From Planctomycetota bacterium (lineage in GTDB: Bacteria > Planctomycetota > Planctomycetia > Pirellulales > Pirellulaceae), in NCBI GenBank assembly GCA_014238905.1, contig JABAAE010000014.1, positions 1-64,000 on the forward strand: DNA of 64,000 nucleotides, read 5' to 3'. Below are positions 44,934 to 60,771 of the stretch, in pieces (the stretch's first letter is position 1; each line of letters begins with the position of its first letter). The notes beneath the pieces are model-generated. The model saw only the letters and a list, made by a program, of their open reading frames with translations, was not told the origin of the DNA and ran no database searches. Position numbers and translations under genes: made by a program.

Positions 44934-46622
44934 CACGTCATCGCCTGAGAACTGTTCCCGTCCTTCCCGGTTCACATTTTTTGACCATCGCTCCTGGCCT
45001 GTTGGGTCCAGTTCAAGCACACAGTCATTTGCATATAGAAGTGTGTTTCCGTTATCCAATCGAAACGCGTTCCGAAATCCGTCTCGATCATATCGCCAGA
45101 CGATTTCATTGCTTTTTTTGTTTACTTCGATTGCGCTGCCTGCAATCGAAATCAACACATTTTTGCCAAGCGGTTGAATCGAACTAAGCGATTTGTCGGT
45201 ATCGACGACGAATTTCCAAATGCAGGTGCCATCAACGGTATACTCGCCAATCATGGGATTCCGCGGGCCTTTCTCTGCCAAGAGGGTATTCCCGCTGTCC
45301 AGGCGTATCGCGTATCCGATGCTGCGCTTGATGGGCTTGAAATCCCAAACAACCTCACCGGCCGGATTTACTTCGACCACCGACTTGCCCTGATGACCGC
45401 AAATTAGAATATTACCGTTGTCCATTGGCTGGGCGTTGACCGGGAACTTAACAGGAATTTCCCGAACGATTCTCTTGTTCCGATCGACTTCAATGACGCG
45501 GTTCCTGCGGTATTCGACAATCAGTATGTTGCCATTGTCCATTCTTACTGCGAATCTGGGATATCCACATGGAAACTTCCAAACGACTTCCGAGGATTTG
45601 CCGAGCAGGAGAACACAATTCCGATTGGTGACCGCGACCAACGTCGGCTGGTCAGTCGTTTTGGAAACCTCCATTCGCAACGGGAAGTTCAACACTGCTG
45701 AATTTCCGTTTAATGTGATCCAATCTTTCCAAGCCGCGATTTGCTTGATTCGCACCTCCGGTTCTTCGTACGCTGAGTAATCCATTGTCTGCCCGGTGAG
45801 CTGCCGAAGCGCGATATGACTGAGTGAGCGAAAACCAGGCGATTTCCACTTGCCCATCACTTCCAACAGCAAACTCAACGATCGTCGATCGCCAAGGTCG
45901 GCAAGTGCCAATGCGGCCTCAAGACGTATGCTTTCCTCCAACAGGTGATTCCGGGCCCAGAACTCAAAGCGGTCGCTCAAAGACTTTTCATGCAGGATTC
46001 GTAACGCAGAGATGGAAACTTCCCGTACCGATGCGGTGGTTTTCGATGCCATTTGAGCTGACAGGAAGTTGATATCTTCGGGCGTCGCGGTGACCGCTAT
46101 TACCCTGCGTGCTAATTGGACAATACGTCTTTCATTGGGGAATCTGGTGACGGAATTTAAAACCTCCTTCGTGATCCCTGGAACCTTCAACAATTCCGCG
46201 GAGCGGAGAACTTTTTCGACTATTTTTATTTCTGCAGGGAGCGTTTTATCGAGAATTTTTTTTGCTCGAAAAGATTTTTCGCTGTGTTCCCCCAGAGCGG
46301 CTTCTCGCAGCAATTCAATGGGGACAACGGTGGAGGCGGTTATGGATTTTTCTGCCGATTGACGCTCGCTAAAACTATCAGATCCAAGCTGAGCAATCAG
46401 TTTTTTGGCCAGCTTTCCATCGTGCCCTGATTGGTCCAACGCTTTCAGATACCTCCGAATCCCCACATGATTCATCGGAACACCACGGCTTTCAAGATAG
46501 GAGCTCAAATGAAGAAGCTCATCCGAAGCGGGCACAGCAGAACTGAACTTCGGTGCAGGCAACGCTGCAACAAGCAAAATGACCATGAGGCCTGCTGGCA
46601 ACTTCGAATGCCAAAAGATCAT
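44910..46622 (-). CDS. Secreted HEAT-repeat plus beta-propeller protein
   Basis: The 570-residue product has a hydrophobic leader (LMVILLVAALPAP). Residues about 55-300 are alpha-helical repeats of HEAT/armadillo type (GKLAKKLIAQLGSDSFSERQ; EAALALADLGDRRSLSLLLE). Residues about 320-560 are propeller blades of the 'DNGNxLxxxxxxxxVxEVDxxGxVVW' type: MDNGNILIVEYRRNRVIEVD, MDNGNILICGHQGKSVVEVN, LDSGNTLLAEKG, LDNGNTLLYANDCVLELDPT. Such blades resemble arylsulfotransferase/PQQ-like propellers. Its ATG overlaps the TGA of the upstream PQQ/EF-hand gene by 4 bp (ATGA), so translation is likely coupled. The stop lies in the 24-bp repeat. The function is probably structural or binding; no catalytic residues were recognised. 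Confidence 0.85.
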   Translation of the reverse strand: MIFWHSKLPAGLMVILLVAALPAPKFSSAVPASDELLHLSSYLESRGVPMNHVGIRRYLKALDQSGHDGKLAKKLIAQLGSDSFSERQSAEKSITASTVVPIELLREAALGEHSEKSFRAKKILDKTLPAEIKIVEKVLRSAELLKVPGITKEVLNSVTRFPNERRIVQLARRVIAVTATPEDINFLSAQMASKTTASVREVSISALRILHEKSLSDRFEFWARNHLLEESIRLEAALALADLGDRRSLSLLLEVMGKWKSPGFRSLSHIALRQLTGQTMDYSAYEEPEVRIKQIAAWKDWITLNGNSAVLNFPLRMEVSKTTDQPTLVAVTNRNCVLLLGKSSEVVWKFPCGYPRFAVRMDNGNILIVEYRRNRVIEVDRNKRIVREIPVKFPVNAQPMDNGNILICGHQGKSVVEVNPAGEVVWDFKPIKRSIGYAIRLDSGNTLLAEKGPRNPMIGEYTVDGTCIWKFVVDTDKSLSSIQPLGKNVLISIAGSAIEVNKKSNEIVWRYDRDGFRNAFRLDNGNTLLYANDCVLELDPTGQERWSKNVNREGREQFSGDDVSYGTVQQ

Positions 46623-48316
46623 TGATCTGTTTTTTCCAATTGCGGTCGTTGTGGACGATCAGGACGTTTGCCACCGCCTTGACCATCATTCCCGCCTCGC
46701 GAACGAGAACCGCCCGAACGAGAACCGCCCGAACGGGAACCGCCAGGACGACCGAACAAGCTTGAAATACCGGATGTAAACTCATTCCTGGAGATCGCTT
46801 GATCACCATCTTTATCCAACGTTTTCAGACGATCTGCCATCCGGTTTCCTTCCAACTCGTCAAAGGTGACTTTTCCATCTCGGTTCGGGTCCATGCCATT
46901 AAACATAGCTGCGGGATCGAACCGGTTGCCGCCCCGACCGCCGCCGGCTGGAGGAGTCGCTGGTCGATTGTCGGCTTTGGACAATAACTCTGGCGAAGTT
47001 TCCGCTTTTTGACCTTTATCTTTTACACAGTACAGAAACTTGGAACTGCGCATGAGAAGTTTTCCGTCCTTGATCGCAGGTGTTCCCCAAAATGTCTCGG
47101 AATCCATCGTGATGCGGTTCATCGCCACCTGCTTCGGCTGGTCGCGGATGTCAAACACGTACATTTGCCCGCTTCCGTCGAGATAATAAAGATGATCTCC
47201 CGCCACCACAGGCGATGGATAATCGGCCGCCTGCATCCGGCCACCGGATCTCGAACCTTTCAATCGAAACTGTTTAATGACCTTCCCGTTGCTCGCATCA
47301 ATCACTTTCAAAATTTTACTAGCCACGACATAAATTCGCGATTTATGCAAAACCGGAGAGGCAAAACTAGCGGTCTCGCTTCCTTCCCAAATCGTATTGG
47401 ACTCAGTCACGTCACCTTGGCCTCCCACATCGATCGCGACACTCCCACCGCCTCGACCGGTGACCGCGAAAGCCCGACTTCCGTCTAAAACAACACTCGC
47501 GTACGACTGCGCCGCGTTAGTCGCTTTGGCAAACCATCTCAGATCCCCATTGTCCGGATTCAATCCCCAAATCTCTCTGGCAACGCACATCACCAAGTCC
47601 GTCCTCGATTCGTTGACTTGGACCAGAGCGGGCGTTCCCCACATTCCATCGAGCCCTTTCGCCTCTTGACGCCACAGCTCTTGACCAGTCTCCCGATCAA
47701 TACCGACGATCGACTGACTTTCCGCCGACGCAGTAACGATGACCGTATTTTTATAGATGATCGGACTCGAAGAGGACCCCCACTTCGCCGGATCAGATTC
47801 CTTGCCGACATTGATTTCCCAAAGTTTTTTTCCCGCCAGCGAAAACGCATGAACACCGCTTTTCCCAAAAAAAGCATAGACGTTTTTGCCATCGGTGACC
47901 GGGGTGTGAGAAGCATACCCGTGTGCCGTGACACCGATCCCGGTAAACGGATCTTCGGGCAAAACGACCTTCACATCTTTCTGCCAAAGTTTTTTCCCAG
48001 TCGAAAGTTGAATGCACACCAGGTGTCGAACCAAATTCTCAAGCTGACCCGGATCATTTCGGTCCAAACCGTATCCGGAGTAGCAAGTCACCAACACCCT
48101 GTCGCCAACAATGATCGGACTCGAAGCGCCCGGCCCGGGTAGGGCTGTCTTCCAATCCAAGTTGGCAGCGGATGACCACGTCAGCGGAATTTTTGAGTCC
48201 GCAGAGACCCCTGAGCCCGCCGGACCCCGAAATCGGGTCCAATCATCAGCAGACGCCGCCAGACAGAGCAGGGGGGCAAAAAGACAGACAGTAGCAAGAC
48301 GTCGGTTCATACTCAT
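46619..48316 (-). CDS. Secreted PQQ-like beta-propeller protein with two EF-hands
   Basis: The 565-residue product has a signal peptide (RLATVCLFAPLLCLAASA). DDWTRFRGPAGSGVSADSKI is the planctomycete propeller opener, then PQQ-type blades: CIQLSTGKKLWQKDV, AFSLAGKKLWEINVG, GIDRETGQELWRQEA, GLNPDNGDLRWFAKA. The C-terminal region has two EF-hand loops, DPNRDGKVTFDE and DKDGDQAISRNE, and a disordered tail of GGSRS repeats and basic residues. Ca2+ binding is likely; PQQ-cofactor enzyme activity is unlikely, since catalytic residues were not seen. The next gene overlaps by 4 bp. Confidence 0.9.
   Translation of the reverse strand: MSMNRRLATVCLFAPLLCLAASADDWTRFRGPAGSGVSADSKIPLTWSSAANLDWKTALPGPGASSPIIVGDRVLVTCYSGYGLDRNDPGQLENLVRHLVCIQLSTGKKLWQKDVKVVLPEDPFTGIGVTAHGYASHTPVTDGKNVYAFFGKSGVHAFSLAGKKLWEINVGKESDPAKWGSSSSPIIYKNTVIVTASAESQSIVGIDRETGQELWRQEAKGLDGMWGTPALVQVNESRTDLVMCVAREIWGLNPDNGDLRWFAKATNAAQSYASVVLDGSRAFAVTGRGGGSVAIDVGGQGDVTESNTIWEGSETASFASPVLHKSRIYVVASKILKVIDASNGKVIKQFRLKGSRSGGRMQAADYPSPVVAGDHLYYLDGSGQMYVFDIRDQPKQVAMNRITMDSETFWGTPAIKDGKLLMRSSKFLYCVKDKGQKAETSPELLSKADNRPATPPAGGGRGGNRFDPAAMFNGMDPNRDGKVTFDELEGNRMADRLKTLDKDGDQAISRNEFTSGISSLFGRPGGSRSGGSRSGGSRSRGGNDGQGGGKRPDRPQRPQLEKTDQ
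46701..46745. repeat. 15-bp in-frame tandem repeat encoding GGSRS units
   Basis: gaacgagaaccgccc is repeated at 46701 and 46716, and with changes at 46731. On the minus strand the units encode GGSRS, three times over, in the flexible C-terminal tail of the EF-hand/PQQ protein. The period is a multiple of three, so length change keeps the frame. Confidence 0.9.
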
Positions 48317-48495
48317 TCTCCGCAGAAAAAATCGCCAAGGTGTTATTCTAACAAACCTTGACCAGGCCCGAATCGCCAGTTCGCTAGTATTTTGCGACAG
48401 ACTACCCGATTTTTTGCTTCACCAAGAAAAGGTTTTACCGCTGGCAAAACCATTTTCCCTTACCCGATTTTCAACTGATACTGTTGATCGACGAA

Positions 48496-54854: not shown

Positions 54855-55688
54855 TTACCTGCCTGCCCAATTAAATGCATTTTTTAGAGCAGACTGTTTC
54901 TTTTGACGCTCGTCTACCTGTTTCTTGATGGGCGTGGCTCCAAGCCTGTCGGCGGCTTCTAACAAAACCATCCAAACAAAGCGAGAAAAGGCTTCCTCGT
55001 ATTCAGCTTTCTCCAAATCATCACCTGCCTGCGCAAATTTAAAAAGGTTGGATAGCATTTGGTTACAGCCGAGATCAACCTGGGTATAAAACATCAATGA
55101 AATATGAAGGACATTTCCGAATTCTTTGGCCTTGTATAGACAGCGAAAATGTTCGAGATCATCTCGTTTGGACCAGAATGCGATCGCGTCAAACTTGAAG
55201 GTCGGAAAAAGAAATGCCAAGCAGCCTGCGTTATGGTTAGTTGCGGTAGCTGGTTTGATATGGACTTCGGGAAATCGTGACTGAATAATGCAGGAACGCA
55301 CTTCATTTAGATATTGCTCTGAAAAACCTTTGGCCTCCTCAAACCAGAGCGTCAGGTAATATCGATCACCCATGACGGTTTTTTTCTTGTCGAAAATAAC
55401 CATTTCACGATCCGTCGCCTGAACATACTTAGCTTGAGGAACAATCGGTACCTGACCAGGCGGTGGCTGACTCGTGGGACGGGGATTTCCGTAAGGGTTG
55501 TCCAACATTTGGTGTGCGGGAATGTCAGGTTTTACAATGGGCATTGGTGGTTCAATAGCTGACTCCAATTCAGGTACCACAACAATAACTGCCTCACATT
55601 TTGGGCACTTCACTTCTGATTTTTTAAAGTCCTCTGCGACCCGCAGCCTGACTTTACAGTTATTACATGTAATCGTTTTTTTGGTCAT
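54855..55688 (-). CDS. Cytoplasmic protein with N-terminal zinc-ribbon
   Basis: The product is 277 residues from ATG 55688 (MTKKTITCNNCKVRLRVAED); ATG 55709 is an alternative. The first 35 residues form a zinc ribbon of the CNNC...CPKC kind. A proline-rich linker (PRPTSQPPPGQVPIVPQ) follows, then a domain of about 180 residues (VIFDKKKTVMGDRYYLTLWF ... HISLMFYTQVDLGCNQMLSN) unknown to me. MJ0042-like ribbons with such linkers are common in planctomycetes in proteins of unknown role. Its end abuts the yidD start, suggesting one transcript. Confidence 0.75.
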   Translation of the reverse strand: MTKKTITCNNCKVRLRVAEDFKKSEVKCPKCEAVIVVVPELESAIEPPMPIVKPDIPAHQMLDNPYGNPRPTSQPPPGQVPIVPQAKYVQATDREMVIFDKKKTVMGDRYYLTLWFEEAKGFSEQYLNEVRSCIIQSRFPEVHIKPATATNHNAGCLAFLFPTFKFDAIAFWSKRDDLEHFRCLYKAKEFGNVLHISLMFYTQVDLGCNQMLSNLFKFAQAGDDLEKAEYEEAFSRFVWMVLLEAADRLGATPIKKQVDERQKKQSALKNAFNWAGR

Positions 55689-55845
55689 TTCTAAAACCCT
55701 GCCGTTCAACTAATCGGATCTATTTAGGATTTTGGTCTGCTCTGCTGGCTACATTCATTTCCGTACCTATATATTAAATTTGCCAAGATCATTAATCAAA
55801 TTAATACCGACTATAAAACTCCAAATCATTGAGGGATTTCTGCCA

Positions 55846-56187
55846 ATGCCCAGCGACACAACTTCGCCCCCAGAGAGTCGGCACGCTTTAGCAGGAACCG
55901 TTGGGAATGTTTTGGAGTGGTACGACTTTGCCATTCTCCTAGGCGGCATCCAGGGACCTCTCCCAGCTTTCATGGTCGAATGTTTTCCAATTCGAGGACG
56001 ATATACCGCCATCGGTTTAAGCTACAACATCACCCTCGCTATTTTTGGTGGCACAGCCCCCTTGGTGAGCACTTGGCTGGTCAAAACAACAGGCGACCTC
56101 GCGTCGCCGGCGATCTATCTGGTTGTTCTGGCAGCCATCAGTTTTGTAAGCATGTTATTTCTAAAACCCATTGACAATAATACTTAG
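55846..56187 (+). pseudogene. MHS-type MFS transporter gene with its middle deleted in frame
   Basis: From ATG 55846 the frame encodes 113 residues. It starts with the MHS-family N-terminus ALAGTVGNVLEWYDFAILL and passes without a stop into the C-terminal segment GPLPAFMVECFPIRGRYTAI, GLSYNITLAIFGGTAPLVST and WLVKTTGDLASPAIYL. In proline/betaine-type MHS transporters these two regions are about 300 residues apart, so helices 2 to about 8-9 are missing, with the junction near residues 28-30 (about 55930). The remaining protein cannot be a 12-helix transporter. The exact frame preservation may be chance or may reflect a recent deletion. Confidence 0.75.
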
Positions 56188-56496
56188 ATCCCCCCAGTCA
56201 CTAGGGCGGAATTGTCCCTGTCGATTCCTGCCAAATCATACGCGATGCCTCTCAAACGCTCGTTTTGATTACCCCTTCCGAATCCACGATTTTCAAAGAC
56301 CGGAAATCAGCTAGCAACTCAGATTCTTTGGCAAGTCAAAGCCTTAAAAATAGGTAATCTGGGAAAATTACTTCGTTTTAGATGGGTGTTGATTCAAACG
56401 TGGTTTCAATACGTCGATAGATCGAAAGGGATTCTGCCGAAGGCTAACCCGTCCCCAACCATCTCACACTTCGCTGTCATTAAATTATCTGAACTT

Positions 56497-58017
56497 ATGC
56501 CGAACCCTTTCCGATCGTGGATGCTTTTAATTTTGATGGCAGGGCTTCCCGGTAACGCTGTCGCGCAATCGGTCTTTGAAAATGACCAAGCCCTACTTTC
56601 CAACCGCAATTTGGAGCAAGGTTTTTTTACGCAACAAAACTCTTCGCAGTCGTTTTCGGTTTCCGAAACCAGACCACCAGACCAAAATCCCGAGTACCCA
56701 ACGATATTTGTAGGTCGTCGGCCGGAGGAACCTAACCTGGTGACTGATCCTCGAAACAGGCAGCTCCCTGTGACAGCCGAAGAGCTGACAGGATCAAGCG
56801 AGACAGCTTCCAATGACCAGTTAAAACGGCTGCAATATTACGCGGCTTACGACAAAGGCCTCGCGATTCTTCCCTTCGATAAAGAGAATAACCCATTTGA
56901 TCTTCGCATCAACGGCTGGATTCAATTCCGACATCATGGATTTGCTCGCAACGTCAGCGACTGGACAGATAACGCCGGGGTGACTCGAGCTGTAAAAAAC
57001 AGGAACGCATTTGACATTGAACGGGCTAGACTTTCTTTCAAGGGTACCGCGATTGATCCGCGATTGTCCTACTTCTACCAACTCGATGGTGATTCCGACG
57101 GTCGGCACACCGTCGACTTTTTTGATTACTGGTGGGCGTGGAAGTTCAACGATCGTTTTCGAATTCAATTTGGAAAACGAAAGGTAACAGCCAGTCGGCA
57201 GTGGCTGCTTGGAGCCAGACGCACGCGATTCATTGATCGTCCAGTTGCCAACGACTTTTTTCGGCCGGACCGAACCCTTGGCATTTTCGGTCAGGGAAAG
57301 ATCGGTACAACCGGTCAATACGAGGTCATGGTTGGCAATGGGTACCGAACGTCGAACCTGCCCAACAACTCGACCGACGACCAATTCACCTACGCCTTCA
57401 ATCAGTATTTTGACCCCTTGGGAGATTATGGAGGTCAAATTGTCGACTTCGACAACACCTGTGACCCGCTAATACGATTTGGTCATTCGTTTGTTTATTC
57501 GCCCATCACGTCTGAGGCACTGGGAAATCCGCTTGCCGAAACCGACTTTATCCGCCTGACCGATGGGACCCGTTTAAATCAAATTGGAGCCTTAAGTCCA
57601 GGTGTCACCGTTTCGGGCGTGGACGTTTATTTTTATGGCCTGGACTTTGCGGCAAAATGGCAAGGCTGGAGTCTCAATTCAGAAGTGTTCCTGCGATGGC
57701 TGGAAAACATTCAAGGCGATGGCGGGTTGCCTGTTGATCGATTGATGCAACACGGATTTTATGTCGAAGGAGGTAAATTCCTCATTCCTGGAAAACTGGA
57801 TGTCAACTTCCGTTATTCAGAAGTCGGCGGACTGCTGGGCGACCGATCCGAGTACGTCGCCGGTTTCAACTGGTACCCTCTTGAAAACAGTCATAAGTTC
57901 AAATGGTCATTTGACGCGACCGTTTTAGACGGGAGTCCACTGAATAACAACTCTTCTGATATCTTGGTGGGGGATGATGGAACACTATTTCGAACTCAAT
58001 TCCAAGCTGAGTTTTAG
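56497..58017 (+). CDS. Phosphate-selective porin O/P-type outer membrane protein
   Basis: The 506-residue product starts at ATG 56497, giving a signal peptide (WMLLILMAGLPGNAVA). The body has alternating beta-strand patterns and aromatic girdles of an outer membrane barrel: INGWIQFRHHGFARNVSDWT, IERARLSFKGTAIDPRLSYF, YQLDGDSDGRHTVDFFDYWW, FRIQFGKRKVTASRQWL, FYGLDFAAKWQGWSLNSEVF, GFYVEGGKFLIPGKLDVNFR and a final aromatic FRTQFQAEF. This resembles the porin O/P (OprP) family. The likely role is outer-membrane uptake of phosphate or other anions, consistent with the several phosphatases in the window. ATG 56386 upstream gives no signal peptide. Confidence 0.85.
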   Translation: MPNPFRSWMLLILMAGLPGNAVAQSVFENDQALLSNRNLEQGFFTQQNSSQSFSVSETRPPDQNPEYPTIFVGRRPEEPNLVTDPRNRQLPVTAEELTGSSETASNDQLKRLQYYAAYDKGLAILPFDKENNPFDLRINGWIQFRHHGFARNVSDWTDNAGVTRAVKNRNAFDIERARLSFKGTAIDPRLSYFYQLDGDSDGRHTVDFFDYWWAWKFNDRFRIQFGKRKVTASRQWLLGARRTRFIDRPVANDFFRPDRTLGIFGQGKIGTTGQYEVMVGNGYRTSNLPNNSTDDQFTYAFNQYFDPLGDYGGQIVDFDNTCDPLIRFGHSFVYSPITSEALGNPLAETDFIRLTDGTRLNQIGALSPGVTVSGVDVYFYGLDFAAKWQGWSLNSEVFLRWLENIQGDGGLPVDRLMQHGFYVEGGKFLIPGKLDVNFRYSEVGGLLGDRSEYVAGFNWYPLENSHKFKWSFDATVLDGSPLNNNSSDILVGDDGTLFRTQFQAEF

Positions 58018-58425: not shown

Positions 58426-60771
58426 ATGATTCGCGTATTTTTAGATGCTCGCGGGCTTTTTGCGTTGCCTTGCCTGATCGTGCTGGTGATGACGGTCGAC
58501 GGTGTCGCCCAAGAGAATGGCAATCACTCGTTCGCGAAAACAGTCCAGCCTTTTTTGGCAGAGCATTGCTACGCCTGCCATTCAGGTGACCAAGCAGAAG
58601 CACAGTTCGATCTGAAGGGACTTGGAAAGGACTTCTCGGCGGAGAAAAACTCGAAGCGCTGGATCGATGTGATGCAAGCTTTGCAGTTTGGAGAAATGCC
58701 ACCGCCGCAAGAAACCCAACCGGCAGCGATTGAAAAAGCAGACGTCGTCGGCTGGATTTTCCAGAAAATGGCCGAAACGGATCAATTCCAGTCGTATCAA
58801 AAGAAATTGCTGGCCCCTGAATACGGTAATTGGGTCAATCATGAAAAGCTTTTTTCTGGCGAGATCAAGACGCCTCCGTTTTCGCCGGCGCGTCTCTGGC
58901 GATACAGCCCGGAGATCTTTGCATCAAAGGGATTTGGGAACGCGAAAAGCCCTTTCACTTATGTGACTTCAGAGCGGGGCATTCGGGATTATGCGGCGAT
59001 GTCGGTGGCGGATCAGAGTACGGTGCAGATGAAGATGGTCGTGGCCGACTCTTTTCTTGCGAGCCGGGAAAAACGGGGCGAGTTCGCAGATTTCGCCCAA
59101 CCTCAAACAAAATCTGAGGAACAGACGCTTCGGGCAGTGATCAGGCGAGAGTTCCTCAGGGTGATCGGTCGCGAGCCAACCGCGCAAGAGAGGGAAAAAT
59201 ATCTCACCTTTCTCAAACAAAACATCAAAACCGGCGGTCACCTTGAGGGACTTAAAACGACCATCAAAGCGATGTTTCTAAGTCCGGAATCAATCTATCG
59301 GATGGAATTCGGCATGGGTAAAGTGGATCAGTACGGCCGCCGACATCTATCACCCGAAGAGCTGGCGTACGCAATTGCCTACGCCCTGACGCATCATGGA
59401 CCGGACCGTAATCGGTTCATCAAAGATGCGTGGCAAAAGGGAGAGCTAAAAACTAAGCAAGACGTCGCTCGTCTGGTCAAGCAACTAATGGACCAGCAAC
59501 TCACCACCGGACGCTGGGACCGAAAAGATTTACCGCGGATCAGGCGATTCTTTGACGAGTTTTTCGGCTTCCACCGCGCCGGAACGGTGTTCAAAGACAA
59601 TGATCGAAAGCGTGCAGAAAAAATTCCCCAATGGAATACCGACATGCTGGTTCACGACGCCGGAATGTTGATTGAGCATGTTTTGAAAAACGACAAAGAT
59701 GTCATTGCCGAGTTGCTAACGACCAACCAATATTTTATTGCGCATCCGGGCGACAATGAGTATGCCCGAGAACGTTACGAGGAAAAATTTGCCGAGGTCA
59801 CCGGCCCAGATTATGTCGAATCCCAGGTGGAGAAGCGGCGAGAACAGATTAAGCGAGATTTTAATTTTGAGGCCATGCCAGAAAAAGTCGACCGTGCCTT
59901 GGAAGCGGCGCGGAATGAAGCAAAGAAAACGGTCGCGAAATTTACGACCGCGCTAGAGAAGGGAATCTATACTCATCCTAGCTTTCCCTTTTCGAACAAA
60001 TCTCGTGGCATCGGTGATCTGCTTTACATCGAACCTTACAATCTGCCCAGTAGCGGCCGCATCGAGCTACAGACGTGGGCTTGGCCTTTGGAGCAACCGT
60101 TGGAAATGCCCCGGCAGCAACGAGCAGGTTTGTTGACACATCCTGCGTGGCTGGCGGCTCATTCACTCAATGAAGACAACGATCCGATTCATCGCGGAAT
60201 CTGGGTATACAAACGGTTACTGGCCGGGGTACTCGGCGATGTGCCGCCGGATGTCGACGCGGTCGTGCCAACCGATCCGCACAAAACACTTAGAGAACGG
60301 ATGAAGCCACTGCGGGCGGAGCGTTGCTGGAAATGTCATCGCAAAATGAATCCGCTCGGCGAACCTTTCGAGGTATTTGACGATTGGGGACGATATCGCG
60401 CCCATCACTATTTTGACGAAAATGACGAAATCTATACGCGGCGGGACGGGCAGTTCGACCGAAAGCTGAAGGAAGGGAAACTTACGACTCGCAAGGTCGA
60501 TGCGTCCGGAGCGATTGCGTTCTCAGGCGATCCCAAGATTGATGGGGAAGTCACCGACGCGATCGAGATGATGCATCGGCTAGGACATTCCGATCGTGCA
60601 CGCCAGTCTTTTATCCGGCATTTATTCCGCTATTTTATGGGGCGGAATGAAATGCTCAGTGATTCAAAAACCTTGATCGAGGCCGAACAGGCTTACTTGG
60701 ACAACGGCGGAAGTTTCAAATCACTTGTTGTTTCGTTGTTAAGTTCAGATTCGTTTTTATACCGCCGCTAA
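58426..60771 (+). CDS. DUF1592/DUF1588/DUF1585 planctomycete cytochrome (cassette 4)
   Basis: The 781-residue product has a signal peptide (ALPCLIVLVMTVDGVAQE). Haem site 1 is CYACHS (48-53) in LAEHCYACHSGDQAEAQFDL, with EMPPPQETQPAAIEKADVVG. Shared subfamily blocks: ELAYAIAYALTHHGPDRNRF, FFDEFFGFHRAGTVFKDNDR, LLTTNQYFIAHPGDNE, LLTHPAWLAAHSLNEDNDPI. Haem site 2 is CWKCHRKMNPLGEPFEVFDD (C634, C637, H638), followed by SFIRHLFRYFMGRNEMLSDS. A charged coiled segment (SQVEKRREQIKRDFNFEAM; RALEAARNEAKKTVAKFT) is specific to this member. It is the shortest of the group and lies 34 bp upstream of its DUF1552 partner. Confidence 0.92.
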   Translation: MIRVFLDARGLFALPCLIVLVMTVDGVAQENGNHSFAKTVQPFLAEHCYACHSGDQAEAQFDLKGLGKDFSAEKNSKRWIDVMQALQFGEMPPPQETQPAAIEKADVVGWIFQKMAETDQFQSYQKKLLAPEYGNWVNHEKLFSGEIKTPPFSPARLWRYSPEIFASKGFGNAKSPFTYVTSERGIRDYAAMSVADQSTVQMKMVVADSFLASREKRGEFADFAQPQTKSEEQTLRAVIRREFLRVIGREPTAQEREKYLTFLKQNIKTGGHLEGLKTTIKAMFLSPESIYRMEFGMGKVDQYGRRHLSPEELAYAIAYALTHHGPDRNRFIKDAWQKGELKTKQDVARLVKQLMDQQLTTGRWDRKDLPRIRRFFDEFFGFHRAGTVFKDNDRKRAEKIPQWNTDMLVHDAGMLIEHVLKNDKDVIAELLTTNQYFIAHPGDNEYARERYEEKFAEVTGPDYVESQVEKRREQIKRDFNFEAMPEKVDRALEAARNEAKKTVAKFTTALEKGIYTHPSFPFSNKSRGIGDLLYIEPYNLPSSGRIELQTWAWPLEQPLEMPRQQRAGLLTHPAWLAAHSLNEDNDPIHRGIWVYKRLLAGVLGDVPPDVDAVVPTDPHKTLRERMKPLRAERCWKCHRKMNPLGEPFEVFDDWGRYRAHHYFDENDEIYTRRDGQFDRKLKEGKLTTRKVDASGAIAFSGDPKIDGEVTDAIEMMHRLGHSDRARQSFIRHLFRYFMGRNEMLSDSKTLIEAEQAYLDNGGSFKSLVVSLLSSDSFLYRR

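Follow-up and report, generated by a model that had tools for sequence, protein, structure and literature searches.

A Probable Young Pseudogene of an MHS-Type MFS Symporter Formed by an In-Frame Internal Deletion in a Planctomycete Genome

The Open Frame and Its Family

The window analysed here, a stretch of 64,000 nucleotides from a Planctomycetota bacterium of the family Pirellulaceae (assembly GCA_014238905.1, contig JABAAE010000014.1, positions 1 to 64,000), contains a short open frame in which the motif GNVLEWYDF is directly joined to AILLGGIQGPLPAFMVECFP...YNITLAIFGGTAP (Table 1). The frame consists of the first ~29 and the last ~84 residues of an MHS-type MFS transporter. Its N-terminal residues align with the start of long relatives, showing 75% identity to the long relative L011 across L011 residues 3-30, while residues 30-99 match the NCBIfam profile TIGR00883 (metabolite/H+ symporter) at profile positions 330-399 of 400, with an E-value of 2e-15 and a score of 56.7 bits that lies far under the full-length cut-off of 443.45. 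Both ends thus match the family, and in the right order. An earlier sequence-only reading had proposed that the N-terminal MHS signature is fused in frame to a C-terminal region, and the 113 open codons, together with the matches to TIGR00883 and to the long relatives, bear this out. L011 itself, with 403.1 bits across positions 1-399 of the 400 in the profile, also falls short of the curated cut-off of 443.45 bits, so the assignment extends to the family rather than to an exact subfamily or substrate. A Pfam scan of the remnant matched no family, and the sole matches in a PDB sequence search were two Tako8 beta-propeller sequences with repeated matches of ~3 bits or less each, which were judged spurious.

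Table 1. Positions of the features at the remnant locus and of a second transporter remnant in another genome
Feature	Position	Strand	Description
PQQ-type beta-propeller gene	46619-48418	-	Best match in the window's genome to the gene after the transporter in L011, 57% identity
Left neighbour, ~284-residue protein	54855-55709	-	Zinc-ribbon-like start (CxxC...CxxC, by eye)
113-codon open frame	55846-56187	+	Start codon, no stop inside
N-terminal coding part kept	55846..55925	+	~Residues 1-27: N-tail and first half of TM1, GNVLEWYD
Deletion joint	55926..55933	+	Bases fitting either side against L011, L012 and L013; one CTTTGC inside
C-terminal coding part kept	55934..56187	+	Second half of TM10, TM11, TM12, stop; 88-92% identity to L008-L013
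Second transporter remnant, G176 (genus g82)	L094 1486-1695 (G176:C77)	-	About the last 70 codons, in-frame TAA

Long Relatives and the Extent of the Loss

A contig search found 392 related stretches, from which 80 loci were kept. The six nearest relatives, L008-L013, have 88-92% identity to the remnant over its C-terminal part and are planctomycete MAGs, all of genus g82, which belongs to the window's family but is another genus; two of them are Mariniblastus. These loci correspond to G163, G151, G152, G162, G157, and G175, and were counted once. Of the six genes, four have the full 432 residues; a contig end truncates L012, and L009 contains N's. When the remnant was aligned with eight long genes (L008-L015), the loss was exactly 933 nt (311 codons) against seven of them, and the eighth, L009, gave an apparent loss of 660 nt with a run of N inside. 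The expected signs of an internal-deletion pseudogene, long versions of the gene in relatives and a gap flanked by collinear ends, are therefore both present, and the in-frame deletion of ~300 codons that had been read from the window is measured at 311.

In the predicted structure of L011 (mean pLDDT 79.9, from nine sequences), the lost part, residues 30-340, starts within the first helix (2-42) and ends within helix 329-347; following the general scheme of MFS proteins, these two helices are taken here to be TM1 and TM10. Mapped on this structure, the remnant would keep half of TM1, half of TM10, TM11, and TM12, and in its hydropathy profile the last segment alone is strongly hydrophobic. 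Twelve helices in two six-helix halves are not found in the remnant, and L011 residues 30-340 are without counterpart. Since a half TM1 joined to a half TM10, TM11, and TM12 cannot form a 12-helix transporter, transport by the remnant would almost certainly be lost, judging from the missing helices.

The Joint and the Short Direct Repeats

The joint had been expected within 55900-55950, and alignment with the long relatives placed it inside this interval. The positions in Table 1 apply to L011, L012, and L013; against the other long genes the equal-scoring positions are 55933 (L008, L010), 55930-55933 (L009), 55927-55929 (L014), and 55936-55939 (L015). At the joint offset, both ends of the lost segment share CTTTGC (6 nt) in L011, L012, and L013, and TTTGCCGT (8 nt) in L015, whereas the ends share 2-3 nt only in L008, L009, L010, and L014. 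The suggestion that short direct repeats lie at the deletion ends in relatives thus holds for four of the eight and fails for the other four. Among random breakpoint pairs in L011, 0.15% have at least 6 bases in common. By tree path, the rows closest to the window are L009 and L010, both without the repeat, in a tree (14 rows, 240 columns) that does not resolve the place of the window gene.

Slippage between short repeats is plausible, although the repeat is read in relatives, the ancestor's own 3' end being gone. As the repeat occurs in only half of the relatives, slippage would have about even odds against a joint formed without repeats. A literature search for in-frame deletions in MAGs found no paper.

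Copy Number and the Search for Short Homologues

Searching the remnant's genome with L011 returned only two pieces, covering query residues 3-30 and 339-425, both collinear at the remnant locus, and the remnant used as query matched only itself. Neither query detected another copy of the transporter in this assembly, a 96-contig draft that is 93.73% complete, so that a copy in the missing part is possible.

Among relatives, 86 loci (L002-L087) were searched, of which 85 matched. In none of these 85 is EWYD 60 residues or fewer away from the C-terminal match; in 82 it lies >200 residues upstream of that match. Matches occur in 7 of 60 genomes of relatives, 18 of 241 of the family, and 78 of 397 of the class, each listing including the window's own genome and the sets overlapping. 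Short homologues were checked by listed open-frame lengths, and six frames of 68-312 residues were inspected; four reach a contig end or stop no more than about 110 bases short of one, and the other two, which are mid-contig (G557 C43, G578 C1), hold the C-terminal part only. The window's joint was not seen in any of these six short frames among the listed family and class matches. Thus, a family of naturally short homologues sharing this joint, which the sequence-only reading had named as the finding that would speak against a deletion, was not found in the 85 loci or the six frames. The one same-genus genome listed, G001 (87% complete), has no transporter match. A plasmid search matched 521 records, all of <60% identity as judged from the best 8 of 521.

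Gene Neighbourhood and a Second Loss in the Family

The remnant and the long genes have different flanks. The transporter of L008-L013 is followed by a PQQ-type beta-propeller gene, and the best match to the L011 version in the window's genome lies at a distance from the remnant (Table 1). The left neighbour has no match in Pfam or in the five relatives searched, and the rest of its own genome holds a single weak, partial match to it; gene position is therefore of no help. Further along the window, a porin-like gene (56386-58017) has 77-78% identity in three of the four g82 genomes searched; in the fourth, G162, it has 34% together with a 38-residue piece of 92% identity, and the best match in the same-genus G001 has 36%. 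A planctomycete cytochrome (DUF1588/1592) gene (58426-60771) has 74-76% identity in all four g82 genomes and 41% in G001. A 16-nt direct repeat, identical at 15 of 16 positions and possibly due to chance, lies before the remnant (55684-55699) and inside its 3' end (56154-56169).

The second transporter remnant, in G176, has 87% identity to L011, and both of its side stretches align to L009 at 89%, with 393 bases between them, ahead of the remnant, that do not align to relatives. Since its boundaries differ from those in the window, it represents a separate event, which suggests that the transporter gene can be lost in this family.

Age of the Deletion

The remnant shows no sign of decay: it has no stop, no frameshift, and no excess of replacements. 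On shared codons, the window lineage carries 4 replacement and 29 silent private changes, and the long genes L009, L010, L011, and L013 together carry 5 and 37, the same ratio; four long genes were dropped from this count, L008 because it nearly duplicates L010, L012 because a contig end truncates its N-terminus, and L014 and L015 because they are distant. The equal ratio indicates little neutral evolution since the deletion. If the remnant has been neutral since, the deletion would fall within the last 6-13% of the branch at most (one-sided 95% Poisson limit), a limit that assumes neutral replacement:silent ratios of 3 to 1.5 and is rough, with silent sites near saturation. Silent divergence (dS) is 1.5-2.3 against L009, L011, and L013 and saturated against L008, L010, L014, and L015, and dN/dS is 0.012-0.018, a rough figure given the high or saturated dS. 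By these codon counts, either the deletion would be young or the remnant would still be constrained.

Interpretation of the Remnant

The frame is best read, with a probability of roughly 0.86, as a young pseudogene of an MHS-type MFS symporter that arose by an in-frame internal deletion of 933 nt. The internal segment would have been lost, most simply in one event, with the frame retained by chance (1 in 3), and the product would join half of TM1 to half of TM10, followed by TM11 and TM12. Replication slippage or another form of RecA-independent recombination at short direct repeats (about CTTTGC) may have been the mechanism.

The absence of decay fits a recent loss, but would also fit continued selection or an intact allele that is still living. 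With an intact allele, no decay is expected, and the deletion would then be an artefact or a minor allele: a chimera among the reads or library molecules, or a variant strain picked by the assembler. The draft state of the assembly leaves room for such an origin. Nevertheless, this seems unlikely, as the joint lies ~56 kb inside a contig of 246,817 bases and 6-8 repeated bases would not by themselves suffice to collapse a k-mer graph, so that some molecules should carry the joint. Continued selection would imply that the short frame has been kept as a small membrane protein that has taken on a new role, such as regulating or partnering another transporter. Its open frame with a start codon and no stop, and its codons conserved as in the long genes, agree with such a role; however, the codon pattern is explained just as well by a recent deletion, none of the inspected matches has this joint, and a scan of 55700-56420 gave no sigma-70 promoter-like sites (shuffle mean 1.1), which is weak evidence, making this role very improbable. 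It would be slightly less probable still that one in-frame deletion created a hybrid TM1/TM10-TM11-TM12 protein that is translated and selected as a new small membrane protein.

The young pseudogene therefore remains the preferred reading, and the remnant is an ordinary kind of gene loss, probably recent. It matters mainly for annotation, as a gene broken by a frame-keeping deletion passes for a normal 113-residue ORF, and transporter counts taken from such drafts would be wrong. The remnant also provides a single case of gene loss, and the same gene has been lost differently in another genus of the family (G176).

Comparison with Known Systems

As in the TIGR00883 / 2A0106 MHS family of the MFS, both ends of the remnant match long family relatives; unlike members of that family, it is without 311 of about 430 codons, from mid-TM1 to mid-TM10. 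RecA-independent deletions between short direct repeats have been documented, e.g., in E. coli K12 (PMC5426353). In contrast to such deletions, the repeat here is only 6-8 nt, comes from relatives, and occurs in four of the eight; a loss between short direct repeats would leave one copy, as is seen at the joint.
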